Virus record (IMG/VR): IMGVR_UViG_3300021964_000257
Location: 1 to 34,016 of that record
From: a virus
Length of the DNA stretch: 34,016 bases
Reading direction: 5' to 3' (one strand)
How positions within the stretch are numbered: the first letter of the stretch is position 1; each line of letters begins with the position of its first letter. The notes beneath the pieces were generated by a model. That model saw nothing but the letters and a program-made list of their open reading frames with translations, was not told the DNA's origin and made no database searches. Made by a program: the position numbers and the translations under genes. Shown here one piece after another: positions 4,173-17,392 of the stretch.

Positions 4173-4963
4173 TATGGATTTACATATTCATAAAATTTTA
4201 TTGGGGTATCCGTACCTATTCTATTACCACCTAAGGTTTCAATTCTATAATCATAATTATCGTAGTCCACTTTAACTTTGTAGTAGAACTTATCTGTTTT
4301 ATTAAAATTAAACTTATCTGAAAACCCCCCTTGTGGTGTATTCGTCATTCTCACGAACTGACCTGTTTTTGCGTTAAAGAACTTACATGACATATAGAAC
4401 TCATCAATATTGATGTATTCTCTACTCTTTAACCAATACAAAAAGAACCCTTCCTTATCTCCCACATAATCTAATTTGTAAGTTGGTATTCTCACATCAA
4501 CTGTTGAACTATATAATGTTTTGGATGTACTCTCTCCTTGTTGTGTTGGTAAGATGATTGTTACATAATTTTTTTGACTTTCAATGTTTGGTGTATCATA
4601 TAAATCCAACTTAAAGAAACTATTTTTGAAAGAGTTTGCGTAGTAATACATTTCATTAACTGTAAAACCCTCATCTTCATAATCACTCACATAGTCATTA
4701 GCTGTTGCGTTTGCAATATCAACAAAAGCACCTAAGAAATTAAATTCGTAATTGATGTCATATCGTTTTGTAGTCCCACTCAACCATAACTGATGGTCAA
4801 ATCGTGTTACCTCAAAATCTTGTGGAGGATTAACCACACGATTAACAACTTCGTCTTCGTACACATCAATTGCATCATCTCTGCCCGCCATATCCCAAGT
4901 TAATTCAATTGGAATTTGAACTTTTCTCTCTGTACCGTTATCTGAAAATCTATATCTATTCAC
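4172..4963 (-). CDS. Tail structural protein, unknown (263 aa), GTG start
   Basis: The function is not recognised. The frame begins MNRYRFSDNGTERK from a GTG codon that overlaps the end of the upstream 566-aa gene by 8 bases. A TAA lies four codons further upstream in this frame, and the first in-frame ATG is about 24 codons downstream, so GTG is the best start. The protein is rich in Tyr, Phe, Asn and Asp and has no membrane segment. Its pattern suggests an all-beta structural protein (for example YKVKVDYDNYDYRIETLGG near the C-terminus). It sits in an overlapping gene string with other baseplate or tail genes, which is the basis for the structural call. Confidence 0.7.
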   Translation of the reverse strand: MNRYRFSDNGTERKVQIPIELTWDMAGRDDAIDVYEDEVVNRVVNPPQDFEVTRFDHQLWLSGTTKRYDINYEFNFLGAFVDIANATANDYVSDYEDEGFTVNEMYYYANSFKNSFFKLDLYDTPNIESQKNYVTIILPTQQGESTSKTLYSSTVDVRIPTYKLDYVGDKEGFFLYWLKSREYINIDEFYMSCKFFNAKTGQFVRMTNTPQGGFSDKFNFNKTDKFYYKVKVDYDNYDYRIETLGGNRIGTDTPIKFYEYVNP

Positions 4964-6656
4964 AATCGTCGTTTAATGGTTGGATTATACCTGTAACTTT
5001 TTGGTTCAAGTTACGTCTCGGTGGCGTTTGTAAGAACATTATATTGGTGAACGGGTAGTGGGCATTATTCAAAAATGGATGGTCCACTCCAACACCTTCC
5101 TCATCTATATATCCATAACTATAAAGGTCTCTCCATCTCCATTTACCATCAAAGTCTGAGTAAAAAGAGTAGTTAGGTATATTATCAACCTCACCTTCAA
5201 CCGCCGTCTCAACATAGTTAGAGAAAGTTCTAACCTGAATCTTATGGTGTGGATAGTACATATAACCTAACGGTAATTGTGGATTGACACCTGTTTGAAA
5301 ATGTACAGAATTATAATTGTATTTGTGTACCATAGGTGAAATAACTTCCTCTTTCATTTCATAGTCGTTCCACTCACAAAAATCACCCATCATTTCATCT
5401 CCAACATTCAAGTCTTTATTGTAATAAAATGTCTGACCATTAACTTGGTAAGAAGACACACTCAAATTATCCTTATTATTTGAATTTGTCTGTGACCACC
5501 ATGGGTCTATCAAATTAGATAAAAAGTTAAAATCCCAACCAATATTTAATGCAGTTGTATTGTTTTGGTATGGTTTATTAAACCAACCCATATAACCCTT
5601 ATTGATAATGGTAACAAATAACTCAGTTAGAGGCCTATCTTGATTGTCTTTATATTGTGAAATATCAATATCTTTTTCAAATGTAAAACCAAATGATTGA
5701 CTACCATTTCTTACAGAAACTCTTTGTACATTATTTGGTGTTAGTGCAGAATATTCTAATTTTTTATTATTGTTGAATGCATTATTTTCAAAACCCATCC
5801 TAGTCAGATTGTAGTCTTTAACACTAGTCAAAATCTTATGCCTTCTCACATAGTATTCTGAGGTAGTTTCACCTGTATTTGACCTATTAATAACTCTCTT
5901 GAGAGTACCCACAACACCATCACCAAAAGTGGTACCCGTGTATCCTAAATCTATTATAGAAAATATCTTTTCTTCTGAACCGTAATTCTCATCACCTAAT
6001 TGATAAACTTGGAAGAATCTTTCTCCATTGTAATCAAAGGATAATTTTACATATTCTCCCTCACTTAAATTATGTTTTGTACCACAATAAAAAGTAATTA
6101 AAGGTTTACCATTATATTTTGTTTTATTCATAACAAATGGTACCCCATCACTAGCTTGAAATATTGTTGACGCACTAAATTCTTCATTATAATAAGTCAT
6201 CGTTTGTCCTGTGACATTCTCAAACGCATAACTTAAGTATGTTGTCCAATTGTAGGTAAATGCACTTTTTGAGACAAATGCTTGGTGTCCATCAATACCT
6301 GAAGTTCTAAAAAAGGTAAACTCACTAAATTGAGGATAACCCCTCCATACATTTGTACTTACCGAGTTAACCTCATTGACATAATACAAATCATTCTTGA
6401 ATGGTGTGTAATTAGTACTACCAGTGATTGTATTATTGAAGATATTATTTATTTTTCCCGTAACCCTAAACGTTGAGCTTTTCTGTCTTTCTTCATTAAA
6501 TCTCTCGGCAAGGTTAATCAATACAGTCCTATCACCATCAACTAATGTTCTTCTATCACCGTTGAGACTAACCTGAAGACCCACATCCTCTGTTGGTGCA
6601 CCTTTATACCTTAAATCACTCGGTACTATTCTTATATTGTTCGGTTCCTTACTCAT
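4956..6656 (-). CDS. Tail/baseplate structural protein, unknown (566 aa)
   Basis: The product is a 566-aa soluble protein of unrecognised family, rich in Asn, Tyr, Phe and Thr. The ATG overlaps the TGA of the 1,753-aa gene (ATGA), and the last 8 bases overlap the next gene, so it is fixed inside an overlapping structural operon. In T4 the order after gene 6 is 7 then 8. By order alone this could be the gp8-position wedge protein, but I see no sequence signature to confirm that. The residues around 380-430 contain several aromatic motifs (GYMGWFNKPY, DPWWSQ) of the kind found in carbohydrate- or protein-contacting surface loops. Confidence 0.72.
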   Translation of the reverse strand: MSKEPNNIRIVPSDLRYKGAPTEDVGLQVSLNGDRRTLVDGDRTVLINLAERFNEERQKSSTFRVTGKINNIFNNTITGSTNYTPFKNDLYYVNEVNSVSTNVWRGYPQFSEFTFFRTSGIDGHQAFVSKSAFTYNWTTYLSYAFENVTGQTMTYYNEEFSASTIFQASDGVPFVMNKTKYNGKPLITFYCGTKHNLSEGEYVKLSFDYNGERFFQVYQLGDENYGSEEKIFSIIDLGYTGTTFGDGVVGTLKRVINRSNTGETTSEYYVRRHKILTSVKDYNLTRMGFENNAFNNNKKLEYSALTPNNVQRVSVRNGSQSFGFTFEKDIDISQYKDNQDRPLTELFVTIINKGYMGWFNKPYQNNTTALNIGWDFNFLSNLIDPWWSQTNSNNKDNLSVSSYQVNGQTFYYNKDLNVGDEMMGDFCEWNDYEMKEEVISPMVHKYNYNSVHFQTGVNPQLPLGYMYYPHHKIQVRTFSNYVETAVEGEVDNIPNYSFYSDFDGKWRWRDLYSYGYIDEEGVGVDHPFLNNAHYPFTNIMFLQTPPRRNLNQKVTGIIQPLNDDCE

Positions 6657-9600
6657 AGAGTTTCTTGATTAAAAATGAACTTATCAATATATCTGTTCAT
6701 TGAAGATGCACCTTTCTTCAATCCAAAGTAGAAGAAATATGGTGAACCTGCGTTGAACCTATTTTTCATCGGATTTGGTTTGTTTGGTGTGACCTCAATT
6801 TGATTACCAACAATGTTAGAATTGTAAATGTAACCTGGTCTTTCTGATGATGGCATTGACACATTAGTATTAAAAGTGTCAGTTGCATTCATTCTGTCTA
6901 CCGATTGGTAATTGAATGAACCAATACCGTCCTGAGACTTTTTACTGTACCAATCATTAACCTGTAAACCAAATATCGTACTACCACTACTAATAATCTC
7001 CCATTTGTGGTACGGGACCTCTTGGTCTGTGTGTCCATAGTTGTCCGACAAATACTGAGTAACGGTATCTTGGAAGGTAAATCTGCCAGGACTAATCATA
7101 TCTCTACTAACAGTGTCAGCACTGAAGAACACACCTAAAACAGGGTCATAGACAGTCCTACCATTTGGTAAAACTCGTTGTTCTCCAATATATCTAATTT
7201 GAGAATCGGAGTAATTTGTGCCCAAATACGGAACAACCCCAAACTCAGAATTAATACTTATAAGTTGACTAATATCAGCATCTAATCTTTGATTATCCCT
7301 TGAAAATAATTTTTGTATTGAACCGTCACCAAAACCTATGATTTGTTCCCAAAATCCTGATGCGGTCAATCTACTAATCGCAAATAATTGTATTAAGTCT
7401 GAAGTATCTTTATATGACGTACTTGAAACCTTATCAATAATGTAACCTTGGAAATCAGGGTTATAACAAATTTCTTTTGTAAATAAGTCTCTTGGACCCA
7501 TATCCATAATCGTTGTAGGGTTACCTAAGAACTTCTTATTCGCACCGTTAGGTCTTCCAATAATATTCACCAACGGTGTATTGTCTCTACCAATAAACCT
7601 AAAACCTACAGGGTTACTAGAGTTATACGGTGATGCTCTATAGAAGAAAGAGTTTGTCTGTGTTTGGTATACTATAGTATCTTCACAATACACATAATCA
7701 GGATTAGTAAGGAACTTAGTGTCATTTATGTTGTTTGAGTATATATTATTTTTTTGGAACGCAAACATATATAATGAGCCGTTTATCCAGTTATTGACAA
7801 AAGTTAAACTGAGTACATTATTACAAAGACCAAACATCATTCTAAATCTTGACCTCCATTCAGCAATAGATTGGAAATCTTCTCTGATAGCAAAGTTTTT
7901 AAGAAGAAGGTAGTAACAACCACCTTGTAATTTTTCTATCTCTTTTTTATCACTTAAGTAATAACATCTATCGTCTTTTGGTAACACACCAATGGTTTCA
8001 CCGTTACCTGAGTAACATTCCAATGGAACCATACCTTCACAAGAGAAAGTTTGATTAATTTGTGTTGCGATTGCACCTGCATCTTCATTAAAGTCATCAG
8101 CACCATCACCTATCACATCCAATCCTACGTTGAATGATTCAGACGTTGTTCCGTCATCGTTTAATGTGTATATTGCAAATGCCTTATTTTGGTGGAGAAC
8201 CATCCTGTTCTGTGTGATATCAGACGTAGGTAATCTATCAGTCCTCATGACAATCTTCTGATTGTTAATCATATTAATTTCATGCGAAGAATTCGCCATT
8301 TGATATGTTTTTGAATAATAATAATAGTTTTCCTTATTCTTAGATATCATAACACCAACACCTTCCAATACTTGCCCTTTATCATAATTGTATAGTGATT
8401 CTAATTCACCTACACCTTGATTGTCTTCTACCATCTCTCTCCAAGTACCTAAACCACCTGTGGTAATTGCCGCAGCTTGGTTGACTACATCAATAACGTT
8501 TGGACTATTAAGTGGTACGTTTGACCCACCAACAACATTACCAATATCATATCTATTATTTGCACCGTAAGCGGAATAATACTGATGATTCTTAGTTTTA
8601 TATGACTGATAGTCAGCATTACTTGGTGTGAAAGAATAAGAATTATAAAAAATTCTTTGGTTCAGAGATGTATTATTATTATTACCATAATTCAGGTGTA
8701 TTGGTAATCTCCAATCACTGGCAGCCCCATATGGTTGAATAGGAATATTAAGTAAGTAATTACCTGTTACTTTTACTGAGCCATTAAACGCACCATAACC
8801 ATATAGATATGATAAGTCATACTCAATAACCTGACGAGGTGTATGTACATCAACACCTCTTACCAAGAAAATAACACCTAAATTTTCCCAATCACCATTA
8901 AGTTTAATATTTGGAACATTCTTTTCAAACCAATCATTACCCCCTGTATCAGGTTTACGGTACGGTGTATTATTGAATCTCCATGGATATTCTTCAGGAT
9001 TTGGATTAGTCAAATATGCGGTTTTTTTAACGTGTTGCCACCCAAATATATGGAACCTTCCCAATGTTTTATTGACTGAGTCACCATACTTATCAGTACC
9101 CCTACCATTTATAGAACATAAGTTTTCAAACTCCGATAGAGTATTACCTGTAATAACTTGGTAATATTCAACGTCAGAAGGAAAATCATATGTAGTAAAA
9201 GAAGTATCACCTGTGATAATATAACTTGTCGTTTGTGTATTGGTATTAGTATCCATGTAAGTGACCGTAATATTTTTCTGTCCACCACCTTGACCTGTAG
9301 TAAAAATTGTTGAACCCGTAGTACTATTAACATTAGGGTCCAATGACTTATTAATATCTTGGAATGTTACAATTTCACCCGCTTGGAAAGAACTCGCAAC
9401 ACCACTATCCACCACTAACATCATAACATTATCAGTATGGAAAGTATTATTGATACTAGGATTAACCTTAACTTTAATTCTGTTTGTTGCACCGTTTGGT
9501 AAGTGGTGGTAATTAGCCTTAGCGTTGAATAAGTTAAACCTTTCAGATAATGGTAAATCATACGACCATGTCTCCCTATTTGTCATTGGATTATCCTTAC

Positions 9601-11914
9601 CTTTTAAGAATGGTGTTCTCGCAAAATCAGAACCACTACCATATACATCGTTTCCTGACATTGTCATTTGGAAACCATATTGGAATTTTTGCCATTGTTC
9701 AATCTCTTCATTTCTAACCCCTACTAACTCATTGAAGAATGTATAGTCAGTGGTATCGACCAAGATGCTCGTGTTTTCTACAATTTCTGGTAAGTCGTCA
9801 CCTTCGGGCTCACCCGCTTGTTTGCTCTCACAAGAACATGCCTGACATTCAGGATAGGAAATATTAGGTAACGGTATTGCCGGTATCGGACAATTTTTTG
9901 GTAGTTTGACCGATTGATAATCCGGACACGGTCTTCTAAATAAACCGAAAGTCAACGCCTTTACAACATAACACAAGACAATAATGACTGTAAGGATTAC
10001 CTTCAATATCAAATCCAATAACCACCTTAAATATTTGTATAAAGTACAGACAACATGACCAACAACTGTAATCACAAATAATATCGGCATGAACAATGTC
10101 ATTACGATGTTAACAATGAAGAATAATAAATCAAAGTTTCTAACACCATCATTTGCCGGAAACTTATTTGTGTCATTCTCACATCCCCTGTCTAAGATTT
10201 CTTTAATACCTAAGAACCTTGCGCGACCGTAACCATTTCTATATTCATCAACCATCTGAGATGGTGTGTAGACTTTGTTGTAATTCATCTCATAGAAAGA
10301 ATCGTCACAACTTATAGCGGCACCCTTATCAGCATAATCACCCCAATCTAAAGAAAAGGCATAAGACTTTTGGAATTGAACGAAGTCATAATCAAAGGTC
10401 TCAACCTCAATGGTAACATTGTTACCCAAATTCACATTGTTAACCTGAACACTTTTTTTAGAAACTCTAATAGTTAATGTACCACCATTTGGGAAATCTA
10501 TCCAATGTTGTGTTTGTACAACATTATTAACCAACGCTTCAACAAGTTCTGCATCTGAATTTGGTTTCACATAAACAGATTTACCAGCAGCAACAGTAAT
10601 TGTCTGTGTTTCAATTATCTGAGTTTGGTTAAAGAAATTAACATTAGTAATCGTGGTCGCACCTTTTGTAGATGGGTCAACACCTGAATTTTGTATAACA
10701 CCATCCCAACCGTATTCACGAATCTGTGGTACAACAAAGTTGGCCCTTTGAATTTCACCTCTAATCGGGAAGAACTGAACACCATCATATGGAGGTCCAT
10801 TTTCTTCTGATTGGTACTTAATCTTAAATCTATATTTACCTTTTGTTGGCACTCCAATAGTTGGGTCGTTGGAAATTACAACCTCACCAAACTCATTGGT
10901 AACTACATAATCTAAGTTCATCGGAACATCGGTTACGAACGTACCATTCTCATCAATGACCTTACCCGCATTCTCTAAATTAAATTGTTCTAATATCGGG
11001 TCACCATTATCATCAATATCTATAGTCTGTCTGACAGCTAAAATTTCACCAGGTCCTGTGGCTAAACCACACATATCACCCTGTTCTGTTCTTGGCTTAC
11101 AATTCGTCTTAACAGGTTTTGTATCAGCATCAGTAAATACTGAACCCATGAATACTGCAGTTGGTTGGATTTCAATACCCAACTCTCTCAAATCAAAGTC
11201 TACTCTTGTGATTCCGATGTTACATAAATCTTCTTGACCCCAAAAAGAAGTAACATCAATATCTTTTACTTGGTTAATAATCTGAGGTAATTCATCTAAG
11301 TTTGACGACGCTTTAAAGTTCTGACCATCAAACTGAGACTGTACCCCCATATTCATTCTAATCAAATCCTGAGGTCTTAAAGAGAAACATCCCATATCTG
11401 ATAAATCCATATCCAACACCAACTTCTGATTACCTAATGGAACACCTGTAATCATAAAGTCACCAGAATCATTAGTCTTTACCGTAAACTTATAGTACTT
11501 CTCATATATTTCTAATACCTCATTACGAGTTAAAACATCCTCCCTTGAAGGAAACGTACCTGTTGGTGTATGACCACCATATTGTTTTTCATATGGAAGT
11601 AGATTGTATCTATAACCATCTTCATTTTTTTCAGAAGGACCTTTGTAGGGATATAATGCAGAGATTACAGGATTTTCTAAGTCCATATCCTCCACAGGAA
11701 CAAATACAGAAACACGAGCGTTAGGAATACCAAAACCACTATTAGCCACTACTCTACCAACAACAACACCATAGTCAGCACAGAATTGTGCGTAGACATC
11801 TTCCTGTCTTAATTTCAAAGATAAGATTTCAAGAAAATCAAAATCTTGTTCAATATTGACTCTGATGTTTTGGTCGGTCCCTAATTTGGTTCTAATTCTA
11901 TAAGATTTGGACAT
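6653..11914 (-). CDS. Giant tail/baseplate protein with Ig-like N-domain and internal membrane-spanning segment (1,753 aa)
   Basis: Residues about 48-185 look like a carboxypeptidase-regulatory/CNA-B-type beta-sandwich. GRVVANSGFGIPNARVSVFV is followed, after a long insertion, by TNDSGDFMITGVPLGNQKL. Residues 595-659 are strongly hydrophobic and could span a membrane two or three times. They are followed by a Pro/Cys-rich stretch with Cys 663, 675, 690, 693 and 695 (CQACSC). The other roughly 1,050 residues are Asn/Tyr/Gly-rich and look beta-structured. It follows gp6 directly, which is the gp7 position in T4 (gp7 is about 1,030 aa), so a baseplate wedge or host-contact role is inferred from order alone. 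A candidate promoter lies in the 75-base gap upstream. A membrane segment inside such a protein is unusual, and the function is unknown. Confidence 0.78.
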   Translation of the reverse strand: MSKSYRIRTKLGTDQNIRVNIEQDFDFLEILSLKLRQEDVYAQFCADYGVVVGRVVANSGFGIPNARVSVFVPVEDMDLENPVISALYPYKGPSEKNEDGYRYNLLPYEKQYGGHTPTGTFPSREDVLTRNEVLEIYEKYYKFTVKTNDSGDFMITGVPLGNQKLVLDMDLSDMGCFSLRPQDLIRMNMGVQSQFDGQNFKASSNLDELPQIINQVKDIDVTSFWGQEDLCNIGITRVDFDLRELGIEIQPTAVFMGSVFTDADTKPVKTNCKPRTEQGDMCGLATGPGEILAVRQTIDIDDNGDPILEQFNLENAGKVIDENGTFVTDVPMNLDYVVTNEFGEVVISNDPTIGVPTKGKYRFKIKYQSEENGPPYDGVQFFPIRGEIQRANFVVPQIREYGWDGVIQNSGVDPSTKGATTITNVNFFNQTQIIETQTITVAAGKSVYVKPNSDAELVEALVNNVVQTQHWIDFPNGGTLTIRVSKKSVQVNNVNLGNNVTIEVETFDYDFVQFQKSYAFSLDWGDYADKGAAISCDDSFYEMNYNKVYTPSQMVDEYRNGYGRARFLGIKEILDRGCENDTNKFPANDGVRNFDLLFFIVNIVMTLFMPILFVITVVGHVVCTLYKYLRWLLDLILKVILTVIIVLCYVVKALTFGLFRRPCPDYQSVKLPKNCPIPAIPLPNISYPECQACSCESKQAGEPEGDDLPEIVENTSILVDTTDYTFFNELVGVRNEEIEQWQKFQYGFQMTMSGNDVYGSGSDFARTPFLKGKDNPMTNRETWSYDLPLSERFNLFNAKANYHHLPNGATNRIKVKVNPSINNTFHTDNVMMLVVDSGVASSFQAGEIVTFQDINKSLDPNVNSTTGSTIFTTGQGGGQKNITVTYMDTNTNTQTTSYIITGDTSFTTYDFPSDVEYYQVITGNTLSEFENLCSINGRGTDKYGDSVNKTLGRFHIFGWQHVKKTAYLTNPNPEEYPWRFNNTPYRKPDTGGNDWFEKNVPNIKLNGDWENLGVIFLVRGVDVHTPRQVIEYDLSYLYGYGAFNGSVKVTGNYLLNIPIQPYGAASDWRLPIHLNYGNNNNTSLNQRIFYNSYSFTPSNADYQSYKTKNHQYYSAYGANNRYDIGNVVGGSNVPLNSPNVIDVVNQAAAITTGGLGTWREMVEDNQGVGELESLYNYDKGQVLEGVGVMISKNKENYYYYSKTYQMANSSHEINMINNQKIVMRTDRLPTSDITQNRMVLHQNKAFAIYTLNDDGTTSESFNVGLDVIGDGADDFNEDAGAIATQINQTFSCEGMVPLECYSGNGETIGVLPKDDRCYYLSDKKEIEKLQGGCYYLLLKNFAIREDFQSIAEWRSRFRMMFGLCNNVLSLTFVNNWINGSLYMFAFQKNNIYSNNINDTKFLTNPDYVYCEDTIVYQTQTNSFFYRASPYNSSNPVGFRFIGRDNTPLVNIIGRPNGANKKFLGNPTTIMDMGPRDLFTKEICYNPDFQGYIIDKVSSTSYKDTSDLIQLFAISRLTASGFWEQIIGFGDGSIQKLFSRDNQRLDADISQLISINSEFGVVPYLGTNYSDSQIRYIGEQRVLPNGRTVYDPVLGVFFSADTVSRDMISPGRFTFQDTVTQYLSDNYGHTDQEVPYHKWEIISSGSTIFGLQVNDWYSKKSQDGIGSFNYQSVDRMNATDTFNTNVSMPSSERPGYIYNSNIVGNQIEVTPNKPNPMKNRFNAGSPYFFYFGLKKGASSMNRYIDKFIFNQETL
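9827..10132 (-). other. Hydrophobic hairpin plus Cys-rich linker within the 1,753-aa tail protein
   Basis: Residues 595-626 (from DLLFFIVNIVMTLFMPILF to HVVCTLY) and 629-659 (LRWLLDLILKVILTVIIVLC onward) are two long hydrophobic blocks separated by a short Lys/Arg-containing turn. They end in a basic RR-P-C sequence. Residues 663-695 then hold five cysteines in a Pro-rich segment, ending CxxCxC. The flanking 590 residues before and 1,050 after are soluble in character. This fits an internal membrane-inserting hairpin with a metal- or disulfide-stabilised cap. Burial in a coiled or trimeric core is an alternative. Confidence 0.6.
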
Positions 11915-11989: not shown

Positions 11990-13828
11990 TTACTTAAAGT
12001 CTACAGTCTTCAAGTCTTTGACTCTTACTTTGATATCTCTACTGTCGTACCTGATTTGGTATATCTGATTTGGTTCTGCAAAGATAGTATCATCAATTAA
12101 TTCAATTCTTTTGGTTGACGAATCAGAATATCTTTGAGATGTTTCTGAAGAAGAATACTGACCACCTACCTTATTAAAGATTGAAACATCAGAGATTGAA
12201 ATTACTCCAGCAACATCTTGTATTTTTTTTCTAATGTCAGATACGTTTACATTTTCACCCAAATCTCTTGATAATGGAGACATTGATTGACTAACTACAT
12301 CAATAATTTGTGTGATTACTTGACCTTGGTTCTGACCTGAATCTAAAACAACTGATATGTCGTACTCCAAATCAATAACCTGAGCTACATTTACTGAGAT
12401 ATAGTCATTAATCATTCTGTATTTTGAAAGATAGTTAGCAATATTTTGTTTTAACGTATTAGAAACTGTTTGTGTCAAATTACCACTACTGTCGTATGAT
12501 AAAATTTCAATATTAATCTTATTATCTTTTTCGGTGATTGACGTTTTAGCAGGTGCACCGTATTTTCCTGGCATTTTTTTAATCAATGAGTTATAGTCAT
12601 TGACTGTTACCGCTCTGTTTTGTGATGCGTAGTTGAAAGTAACCATATTTCTCACCTCTTCAATTGAAGGTTGGTTAGCACCACCAATAGCCGCAGTTAC
12701 ATTATTGACAAATAAAGAACCCACAACCTGTTGATTAATAGTACTACTCGGACCATTTACCGCGAAATTAATTGTACCCAATTGATTGATAACGTTAACA
12801 CCAATATTACTACCTTCACCACCACCAATTCTATATTTAACAAATAAAGTGGTATTTGCCTCAACTGTTTTACCTAAACCGATATTGTTTTGATAGTCCT
12901 CAATTCTTAATGAAACACCGTTTCTTGCAAATTCTGCAAGTTGGTCATCAGGTGTTGTAGTACCCCCACCAAATTGAACTCTCAAGAACCCATTTGGTGT
13001 GTATTCTGTGATAAATCTATTATCCGTCTCAATATACTTACCTACTTTAATACCTGGCTTATCTGTCGGCTTTGTGGTGTCTTCAACAAATACTGTAGAC
13101 TCAGCCAACGCATCCATTTCATACCATCTTACCTGAGCATTTACAAACTCAGAATACGTTGGTGTTGACTGGTAGGATGTACCATCTTTTTGAATGATGT
13201 CAACAACTTCTAACACGTTCTTTTCAGGTAAAAAGAATTCAAAGAATGGTTTTACATCATTACTATTGATTGTTTTCTTATAAATTTTTGTTACACCATT
13301 AACAACAACCTCTCTTTTAGTGATTGTATAGTTAATAAGAGTGTTATTAGAGTCAAAATTAGGAATTTTTGTACGGTTAGGATACCCTTCATTGTTATAC
13401 TGTGAAGAGAAGTCAATATCATAAACATTCTCAAAGACTTGTCCCGCACCTAAAACTTGTGAACCCGCTCTTAAAATACCCAAATACCTTGTATCCTCTT
13501 GGTCACCGTTTGCAGGTACCGTAATTGAAAAATCAACCAAAGCGACGGAAGGTCTGTTACCAGGAATTTTAAGACCATAAGTTCTGGCAATATTAAATAT
13601 TGATGAACGTTGTTGGGCGTATTGTAAAACAGTTTCTTGAACACTTCTATCAATATGGTACTTTAAGTTATCACCAATAGCTGCGTTTAGGTCCATCAAT
13701 ACTGAATAAACCGCAGCATCATTGAAGTTGTCTATAAGTTCAGGATAATATTGTTTTGTATAATTTACAAGGTCCTGTCTTAAACCTTCAAAGTCTCTTT
13801 CCGTATATGAAATTTTTCTACCCGCCAT
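11990..13828 (-). CDS. gp6: Baseplate wedge protein, gp6 / baseplate J-like
   Basis: The 612-aa product is similar in length to T4 gp6 (660 aa), the wedge protein that closes the inner ring of the baseplate. The N-terminus MAGRKISYTERDFEGLRQDL, followed by a helical segment with NAAIGDNLKYHIDRS, is typical of phage gp6/J-type proteins (a D-F...L...L element, then a 'lots of neighbours' helix around residues 45-85). The central part (residues 290-420) has the Gly-rich beta segment VQFGGGTT...YRIGGGEGSNIG. Then comes VRNMVTFNYASQNRAVTVNDY (residues about 395-420), the conserved baseplate-J motif region. It starts 6 bases after the gp25 stop, and the gp25-gp6 pair supports the assignment. The start ATG is the first in frame. 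Confidence 0.88.
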   Translation of the reverse strand: MAGRKISYTERDFEGLRQDLVNYTKQYYPELIDNFNDAAVYSVLMDLNAAIGDNLKYHIDRSVQETVLQYAQQRSSIFNIARTYGLKIPGNRPSVALVDFSITVPANGDQEDTRYLGILRAGSQVLGAGQVFENVYDIDFSSQYNNEGYPNRTKIPNFDSNNTLINYTITKREVVVNGVTKIYKKTINSNDVKPFFEFFLPEKNVLEVVDIIQKDGTSYQSTPTYSEFVNAQVRWYEMDALAESTVFVEDTTKPTDKPGIKVGKYIETDNRFITEYTPNGFLRVQFGGGTTTPDDQLAEFARNGVSLRIEDYQNNIGLGKTVEANTTLFVKYRIGGGEGSNIGVNVINQLGTINFAVNGPSSTINQQVVGSLFVNNVTAAIGGANQPSIEEVRNMVTFNYASQNRAVTVNDYNSLIKKMPGKYGAPAKTSITEKDNKINIEILSYDSSGNLTQTVSNTLKQNIANYLSKYRMINDYISVNVAQVIDLEYDISVVLDSGQNQGQVITQIIDVVSQSMSPLSRDLGENVNVSDIRKKIQDVAGVISISDVSIFNKVGGQYSSSETSQRYSDSSTKRIELIDDTIFAEPNQIYQIRYDSRDIKVRVKDLKTVDFK

Positions 13829-13834
13829 CTACTA

Positions 13835-14299
13835 TTAAATATTTATAATTATGAAATCTTTGGAATCAAATGTTCCATCAGTTATAGTGTAATCAATTCT
13901 TAATTTTGCGGTATATTCTTCAACCCCTCTACCAGGAATACGATAAATTCCACCAACACCCAATTTTTCTTCATTCAACATTCCTTCAGCCTCCAAATCA
14001 TCTAAGTATGGTGTCAATGTTATTTCATTAATGGTTAAGTTTGGAATATACTTCTCAACAGATAACTTAATATCATCTTTGATTCCCTGAAAGGTTGTAC
14101 CGTCCATAGGTTCAAAAATAAATTCATAAATTCTCGTTCCAAAATCAGGAAGATAGTACCTACTACCCTTTCTTGTAAGTATCAAATGAAGTAAGTCAGT
14201 CCTAACCTCCTCATCAGCCGTCTGTGAAAGAGAAAGATACTTACCTACCCTACTATCCTGAAAGGGGAAATTTATTCCGTATGTTTTACCATTAGCCAT
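13835..14299 (-). CDS. gp25: Baseplate wedge protein gp25 (GPW/gp25 family)
   Basis: The 154-aa protein matches the GPW/gp25 family (T4 gp25 is 132 aa), which sits in the inner baseplate and starts sheath assembly. Signature elements are GINFPFQDS at the N-terminus, then EEVRTDLLHLILTRKGSRYY, and the motif PDFGTRIYEFIFEPMD (about residues 50-66), whose P-x-F-G...FEP pattern is the family hallmark. The C-terminal half has the expected beta-alpha-beta layout and ends in the basic strand AKLRIDYTI. The gene is the first after the nrdA terminator and is followed 6 bases later by gp6, as in many contractile phages. The start is an ATG with leader AGGTA just upstream, not a clear ribosome binding site. 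Confidence 0.92.
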   Translation of the reverse strand: MANGKTYGINFPFQDSRVGKYLSLSQTADEEVRTDLLHLILTRKGSRYYLPDFGTRIYEFIFEPMDGTTFQGIKDDIKLSVEKYIPNLTINEITLTPYLDDLEAEGMLNEEKLGVGGIYRIPGRGVEEYTAKLRIDYTITDGTFDSKDFIIINI

Positions 14300-16111: not shown

Positions 16112-17392
16112 TTAAAATAAATCGTTTGATGTAATTGATTTAGATTTCTTACTGTAGTTAATACTTCTTTTGTTGAAGAAATCTGTGTGTTTTGTAGTCA
16201 GAATTTCATCATCAAACCACTCAGTCGTTTCCAACAATGCTTCATTGATTTCAAAAATACTTTCAAGACCAATAGAGTTTAATGATAGATTAAATCTATG
16301 TTTAATAAATTCCATAGTCTGACTTTTCGTCAAGAAATCCAAATCACCTTCCTCAAAAATCCAATCTATAATTTCTGTTTCCGCCTCAAATGCTTCCATA
16401 GTCGCATTGATAAGGTCTTCCTGTAATCCTTCTGTCCACCATGATGGGTTCTCTTGTTTGATAAGGTTTACCAAATCAAACCCAAACTCTGCGTGGATAT
16501 TTTCTTCTTTTGATGTCGCCTCAACAGCGTTACTAATACCTTTCAACATGTTCTTATGTTTGTTGAATGATAACATAACCAAGAATTGTGAGAACAACGA
16601 TACGTTTTCTACGAACATAGAGAATAATACTACAGACTCAAAGTAGTCTTTGTTTTCTACTGACTTTGAGTTTGAAATAGACTTCTCTAAGTATTTGATT
16701 CTTCTACGAATTGCTGGTACTTCCATAAGAGTTTCAAACTCTGCGTTAAGACCCAACAACTGAATCAAATGAGAATACGCGTCAGCGTGTCTTACTTCTG
16801 ATTCTGCGAATGTCGCACCTACATTACCAATTTCAGGTTTCGGCATCCTTTTGTAGATGTCACCCCAAAATGATTTCACCGCAACTTCAATCTGTGAGAT
16901 TGCTAACATCGCTCTTTTTACCGCGGTTTTTTCTTTCTTATCCAAGTGAACTTTGAAGTCTTGGATGTCTGATGTAAAATTAAACTCAGTGTGTACCCAG
17001 TATGAGTGTCTGATAGCATCTACATACTCATTAAGATTTGGGTATTCATAAGGTTTAAGATTGGTTCTCTTTGAGAAAATATCAGGTCTGTGTTTTGCAC
17101 GGTACACGATATATTCTCTTGCCACGTCGTTAAGACCATTATCCATCAATTTGTTTTCAACCATTTCATGAATGTCATCAACATGTGGAGTTTTATCTTT
17201 ATCATCTCTGAAGATTCCCTTGCGAGTGAGTCTCGCAATCTTCTCAGCCATTTCATCATCAACCTCACCTACTGACTGCATCGCCTTCAGTACCGCGTAT
17301 TTGATTTTCTCCGCTTCAAAGATTACCTCTTCACCACTCCTCTTAATTACATAACGAGTTTCTTTACTGTTCATAGTATTAAAATTTACCAT
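16112..17392 (-). CDS. nrdB: Class I ribonucleotide reductase radical-generating subunit with N-terminal ATP-cone
   Basis: Residues about 12-103 form an ATP-cone: YVIKRSGEEVIFEAEKI at 14-30, a helical middle with HVDDIHEMVE, and REYIVYRAKHR at the end. ATP-cones normally sit on NrdA. The ferritin-like domain follows, with metal ligands Glu169, Glu199, His202, Glu262, Glu297 and His300 and the radical Tyr206 (ESEVRHADAY). The first ligand aligns with E. coli Asp84 but is Glu. The C-terminus SNDLF fits the tail that docks into NrdA. Length is 426 aa against about 375 for E. coli NrdB, the extra being the cone. The ATG at 17392 is preceded by an A/T-rich leader; a second ATG (Met7) is possible. 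The same layout is known in flavobacterial NrdB, where dATP binding to the cone turns the enzyme off. Confidence 0.95.
   Translation of the reverse strand: MVNFNTMNSKETRYVIKRSGEEVIFEAEKIKYAVLKAMQSVGEVDDEMAEKIARLTRKGIFRDDKDKTPHVDDIHEMVENKLMDNGLNDVAREYIVYRAKHRPDIFSKRTNLKPYEYPNLNEYVDAIRHSYWVHTEFNFTSDIQDFKVHLDKKEKTAVKRAMLAISQIEVAVKSFWGDIYKRMPKPEIGNVGATFAESEVRHADAYSHLIQLLGLNAEFETLMEVPAIRRRIKYLEKSISNSKSVENKDYFESVVLFSMFVENVSLFSQFLVMLSFNKHKNMLKGISNAVEATSKEENIHAEFGFDLVNLIKQENPSWWTEGLQEDLINATMEAFEAETEIIDWIFEEGDLDFLTKSQTMEFIKHRFNLSLNSIGLESIFEINEALLETTEWFDDEILTTKHTDFFNKRSINYSKKSKSITSNDLF
17093..17359 (-). other. ATP-cone allosteric domain on NrdB
   Basis: Residues 12-100 of NrdB match the ATP-cone pattern: V-I-K-R-x-G near the start, F-x-x-x-K-I, A-V-x-K-A, and a closing Y-I-V-Y-R. 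The neighbouring NrdA lacks this domain, so overall activity control by ATP/dATP should act through the radical subunit. Confidence 0.9.

Follow-up and report, generated by a model that had tools for sequence, protein, structure and literature searches.

For contractile-tailed phages there is still no good account of how DNA crosses the inner membrane or of what keeps the baseplate in place during firing. Membrane-inserting helices in tail proteins are already known. In phage T5, a stretch of 46 hydrophobic residues in pb2*, compatible with two transmembrane helices, has been proposed to serve, with pb3, as outer-membrane anchor and channel (PMC10038345). In the thylakoid-anchored CIS of Anabaena, a transmembrane helix of Cis13 anchors the baseplate, and many of the machines come loose once the transmembrane domain is deleted (PMC8894136); the diffocin tape measure also has predicted transmembrane helices (PMC10996793). 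The main warning against a membrane reading everywhere comes from T4 gp7, which suggests that a stretch of this kind in a baseplate protein can be a buried helix: its RefSeq note reads 'C-terminus is predicted integral membrane domain' and its insertion energy is -0.2 kcal/mol at residues 879-900, yet solved T4 baseplates such as 5HX2 and 5IV5 include the full-length protein as a chain. Among the T4 baseplate proteins that we examined, gp7 was the exception with a hydropathy peak of 2.07, the others reaching at most 1.66. Here we describe a much longer hydrophobic element in a protein encoded next to gp6 in uncultured phages. Literature searches turned up no protein adjacent to gp6 in contractile phages that has a transmembrane-type element. 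We tentatively propose, with rather less than even confidence, that the element described here is a shielded membrane-insertion or anchoring element in a structural baseplate protein.

The window, that is, the whole stretch of DNA analysed, is a 34,016-base fragment of an uncultured T4-like virus. From its right end, the - strand encodes a partial product of 1,330 aa, a gp53-like protein, products of 2,144 and 206 aa, an ssDNA-binding protein and UvsX, then RNase H, a 150-aa protein, a DnaB-type helicase, NrdB, NrdA, gp25, gp6 and the 1,753-aa protein studied here, and finally products of 566, 263, 360, 301 and 727 aa (Table 1); RNase H, NrdA and NrdB are presumptive names that we assigned from sequence. 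Long loci of the aquatic clade defined below share the order gp25-gp6-protein-566-263-360-301-727, and in 181 of 184 loci gp6 is the immediate upstream neighbour of the family protein. A tail sheath is encoded as well in the 153-kb relative G001, which indicates that phages of this family are contractile-tailed. Distant relatives of the window gp6 (25-27% identity) were found in Flavobacterium phage immuto, Microcystis phage Mel-JY01 and a 484-kb uncultured phage. The 727-aa product (partial, positions 1-2181) matched a 1,265-aa protein that immuto encodes downstream of gp6 (hhalign probability 83.5%, residues 320-480); by eye it had passed for T4 gp7, an identification that hhalign did not support (0.3%). 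The gene at 16112-17392 encodes what we take to be an NrdB-like protein of 426 aa with an ATP-cone-like start (VIKRSGEEVIFEAEKIKYAVLKAM...), and NrdA (568 aa) apparently lacks one. ATP-cones borne by NrdB are known from Bacteroidota, and a Bacteroidota host would fit.

Table 1. Positions in the window of the 1,753-aa protein, its neighbours and its sequence features
Feature	Position	Strand	Basis or remark
1,753-aa protein, no named family	6653..11914	-	ORF; N-terminal part weakly CarboxypepD_reg-like, C-terminal part beta-rich
gp6-like baseplate wedge protein (Baseplate_J)	11990..13828	-	phrog_219, E 2e-19
gp25-like baseplate wedge protein	13835..14299	-	PF04965, E 8.5e-10; phrog_261
Conserved 566-aa product without a name, downstream of the 1,753-aa protein	4956..6656	-	next recognised neighbour, 79 loci
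Double hydrophobic element, residues 596-651	9962..10129	-	hydropathy, insertion energy, conservation
First predicted transmembrane segment, residues 596-618	10061..10129	-	dG -1.99 kcal/mol
Connecting residues 619-628	10031..10060	-	H620 conserved; most relatives have W-P
Second predicted transmembrane segment, residues 629-651	9962..10030	-	dG -2.37 kcal/mol
C578, 18 residues ahead of the hydrophobic block	10181..10183	-	84/84 and 92/93 aquatic
C690-x2-C693-x-C695 in the motif LPxxSYP(D/E)CxxCxC(E/D), after the block	9830..9847	-	84/84 each

At least 589 stretches in IMG/VR encode relatives of the 1,753-aa protein, and complete members span about 1,500-3,000 aa. An earlier note on this DNA knew of no named family with the layout of hydrophobic blocks and cysteines described below, and database searches bore this out: the protein had no PHROG match and no Pfam match above cut-off, a PDB sequence search with the family protein returned nothing, and tblastn of the window protein and two distant members against 50,697 phage records gave zero matches. 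The family is undescribed in the libraries searched. One deposited member was found, A0A8S5LA66, an uncharacterized protein from Myoviridae sp. ctPuP5 (UniProt/BFVD), with 43% identity across 376 columns. In immuto, Mel-JY01 and the 484-kb phage (LR756508), ORFs close to gp6 fell outside the family, with the exception of a marginal 217-aa ORF in Mel-JY01 (E 0.002), and a search of the long ORFs after gp6 in these three genomes for a hydrophobic segment found none. Two relatives lie on MAG contigs, one assigned to Paludibacteraceae (yak rumen) and one to Mycoplasmatota. We extracted 185 distinct homologues and divided them into 93 with a CxxCxC motif ('aquatic') and 92 without ('gut/rumen'), labels that rest on this motif and on the rumen MAG and not on the sample origins of single IMG/VR contigs. 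As a side observation, gut/rumen-clade contigs (L158-L299) reach 412 kb, yet the family has zero INPHARED matches; the phage record collection seems to lack a large lineage of huge phages of the gut.

The N-terminal region of the protein (window 10715-11914, residues 1-400) is highly conserved. CarboxypepD_reg (PF13620) matched residues ~48-170 below threshold in 24 of 36 members, with a best E of 0.0014; the window protein itself scored 19.4 bits against a cut-off of 32.3, and a sub-threshold carboxypeptidase-regulatory-like match was placed around 143-166. AlphaFold predicted the C-terminal part to be beta-rich. A fold search of viral and PDB libraries with the N-terminal model returned a single homologue, A0A8S5LA66, and one with the C-terminal model returned no match, these models being of low confidence. 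Comparison by hhalign with T4 gp5, gp6, gp8, gp9, gp10, gp11, gp12, gp53 and wac gave probabilities of at most 1.2%, and membership in the gp7 family was ruled out for both halves (0.2%). This lack of detectable relation to any T4 wedge protein would suit a membrane protein that is encoded among the baseplate genes but is no part of the virion, such as an assembly chaperone or a host-envelope factor. We regard that as very unlikely, given the strictly kept place of the gene between gp6 and further conserved tail genes, the large size of the protein and its beta-rich C-terminal part; the family protein would instead be a conserved structural component of the baseplate.

The hydrophobic stretch (LLFFIVNIVMTLFMPILFVITVVGHVVCTLYKYLRWLLDLILKVILTVIIVLCYVVKALTFGLF) lies within positions 9827-10132 of the - strand, the stretch singled out in the earlier note, which encodes residues 595-696 of the 1,753-aa ORF. 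Over 65 residues its mean Kyte-Doolittle hydropathy is 1.94, against a maximum of 1.32 in 300 shuffles of the window protein. The best 19-residue mean is 2.69, a value that the best of 300 same-composition shuffles also reached, so that it is the length of the stretch that is significant. The note had also proposed transmembrane prediction as a check. A Hessa-type insertion-energy scan, whose parameters were checked on a single segment known to span the membrane (glycophorin-type, -1.13) so that its rankings are safer than its absolute values, detected exactly two segments in the 1,753-aa protein, at residues 596-618 and 629-651. The same scan of the 18 other window proteins found no segment below +1.5 kcal/mol. 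Between the window protein and that of locus L007, which is 81% identical, dN/dS across residues 595-659 was 0.057. An artefact or a chance run of residues was ruled out by this low ratio, by the excess of the 65-residue mean over shuffles and by the ORF being open in 185 homologues. Both hydrophobic blocks, and a K/R in the turn between them, are present as claimed; the 'short basic turn', by contrast, proved to be lineage-specific, most relatives having W-P-x-L-K/R there.

We then compared the element across the homologue set. A hydrophobic 19-residue window (>1.6) occurs in the corresponding region of all 185 homologues, and in the aquatic alignment hydrophobicity is maintained though the sequence drifts. 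Insertion-energy scans of aquatic representatives predicted at least one transmembrane segment in 16 of 16 and two or three in 14 of 16. The second segment (629-651) is strongly hydrophobic in the aquatic clade only; a single weaker, more amphipathic segment is left in the gut/rumen clade, where 16 of 26 representatives have one segment below 0 kcal/mol and 6 have none below 0.5. The earlier note would have taken homologues without a hydrophobic region as evidence against a membrane element, and half of that was found: the region persists throughout, reduced in the gut/rumen clade to one segment and in those 6 representatives to less than a predicted one. The best window had a median Eisenberg hydrophobicity of 0.86 and a median moment of 0.22 in the aquatic clade, versus 0.74 and 0.29 in the gut clade; the aquatic medians are in the transmembrane range, whereas some gut members are clearly amphipathic. 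Since the segment count varies from one to three across the family, a fixed topology is not conserved, which argues for a general anchor over a channel of fixed geometry.

The first segment has a polar face. N602 is present in 61 of 84 aquatic sequences, positions 606 and 609 are mostly small or polar in relatives (T606 and M609 in the window), and H620, just past the segment, is present in 74 of 84; positions 602, 606, 609 and 620 fall within a 60-degree arc of the helix (p = 0.016). Aromatic residues flank the segment, at F/Y598 and at W626 (72/84), with P627 (63/84) and K/R630 (65/84) behind. If the element is inserted, this polar face would touch other helices or a lumen. In the gut clade, a polar stripe contains an invariant C and N 14 residues apart, often with a K between them.

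Net charge averages +1.68 after the block and -0.25 before it, and as a guide to positive-inside topology these predicted flanks are weakly informative. They would fit a cytoplasmic C-terminal side, as would be expected if the element tethered the protein, once made, to the inner membrane of the host for baseplate assembly and took no part in entry. We found no N-terminal signal-peptide-like hydrophobic stretch in the family protein, so that with two crossings both large domains would stay on the cytoplasmic side, which would suit such a tether. However, lysis would then have to pull the mature particle off the membrane with the element covered, single-segment gut members would have their two domains on opposite sides of the membrane, and the number of segments is inconstant. 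We therefore consider an assembly tether decidedly unlikely.

AlphaFold predicted the element to be helical and long. One model has helices at residues 589-624 and 626-654 with a one-residue break, and another has an unbroken 66-residue helix, 589-654; these are monomer models from shallow alignments, with a mean pLDDT of 53-55 overall and ~75 in the element. The packed hairpin that the earlier note had anticipated is thus absent from these low-confidence models. P627 at the turn supports two helices or a kink there, and a hairpin is the likely form of the element as we would model it. The long helix that AlphaFold gives would also suit helices that are permanently buried in the core of the assembled baseplate, for example in a helix bundle between copies, and never meet lipid. 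T4 gp7 is a precedent for such burial, and some features of the gut clade point the same way, namely the polar residues at every third or fourth position of its hydrophobic helix, as in one that is mostly buried, and the amphipathic members noted above. The aquatic element, however, is far longer and more hydrophobic than that of gp7, with two segments near -2 kcal/mol, and it has about 30 uncharged residues in a row with the lipid-preferring I, L, V and F on nearly every helix face. A buried core is the main rival and a real possibility, although on this evidence we doubt it.

In favour of membrane insertion we counted the presence of predicted segments in this protein alone among those of the window, conservation in 185 of 185 homologues, aquatic medians in the transmembrane range, the aromatic residues on either side of the first segment, the polar arc, and synteny in 181 of 184 loci next to gp25-gp6; against it we counted low-confidence AlphaFold models without a packed hairpin, the varying number of segments and the gp7 precedent. 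In the mechanism that we envisage, the insertion element would sit between the N- and C-terminal domains as two hydrophobic helices in aquatic members and one in gut members, and neighbouring subunits would shield it in the free particle. Rearrangement of the baseplate on the host would expose the element, which would then enter an envelope membrane, anchor the baseplate and perhaps form part of the lining of an opening for tube or DNA. If inserted, the element might give the phage a hold on the host membrane or a way through it.

Cysteines stand at both ends of the element. The earlier note had pointed to five cysteines in 33 residues ending in CxxCxC (C663, C675, C690, C693 and C695); all five are present in the window protein, but only C690, C693 and C695 are invariant. 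Each of C578, C690, C693 and C695 is found in 92 or 93 of the 93 aquatic members, as is each of C45, C231, C282 and C536. C272 is invariant in all 185 homologues, and C45, C231 and C282, which with it make up the four cysteines of the N-terminal region, are invariant in the aquatic clade only. The gut clade lacks C578, C690, C693 and C695 as a set; in some of its sequences a cysteine does align at 690 or 695, and in some one follows the GIK motif. Judged by their positions, C578 and C690/C693/C695, which bracket the hydrophobic element, could form a metal site or disulfides that hold its base together. We had considered covariation of these four cysteines as independent evidence and dropped it: their co-occurrence is weak in that respect because the two clades may differ by a single event on the tree.

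The closest described systems differ from this one in several ways. T5 pb2 is likewise a tail protein with two adjacent transmembrane-type segments, but the T5 tail is non-contractile and pb2 is the tape measure inside its tube, whereas the present gene lies in a contractile wedge cluster, between gp6 and other genes of that cluster. It lies outside the sheath region, and the family had no match to PHROG tape-measure proteins. Cis13 is likewise a baseplate-linked protein of a contractile machine and has a transmembrane helix, whereas the helices of the family protein are predicted from sequence; Cis13, however, belongs to a cell-borne system, in which it is trimeric and resembles a tail fibre, and the likeness drawn here is one of description. 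The gene for T4 gp7 also directly follows gp6 and its segment is annotated as predicted integral membrane, but that segment is single and weak and belongs to a protein of solved baseplates. Among the large genes in the first 60 kb of G001, from sheath to tail fibres, only the family protein has a hydropathy window above 1.6, except for NrdB (1.77), which we take to be a nucleotide-metabolism enzyme with a marginal score in this putative virion cluster. No tape-measure-type protein there therefore seems to supply such a segment. A bolder reading is that a contractile lineage, including megaphages (contigs >400 kb), places its membrane-penetrating or channel helices in a wedge-region protein and not in the tape measure, with several copies giving a ring of polar-faced helices round the tube. 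We think this unlikely; if true, the helix ring would give contractile phages a novel means of holding and opening the membrane of their host. What is observed is a conserved membrane-type element at a fixed place in a baseplate-cluster protein of hundreds of uncultured phages, apparently from water and rumen samples, a protein without a database name, and with it a specific protein and a 56-residue stretch become testable.

Two minor observations concern neighbouring genes in gut relatives. The Mycoplasmatota-binned contig encodes an 845-aa DnaB-type helicase (L081:1852-4389) with a seeming intein within Walker A (GVGK/...HNT). Gut relatives also carry apparent NrdD/NrdG, an anaerobic ribonucleotide reductase, in place of the aquatic NrdA/NrdB (L081:4482-6653 and L082:3020-5245).
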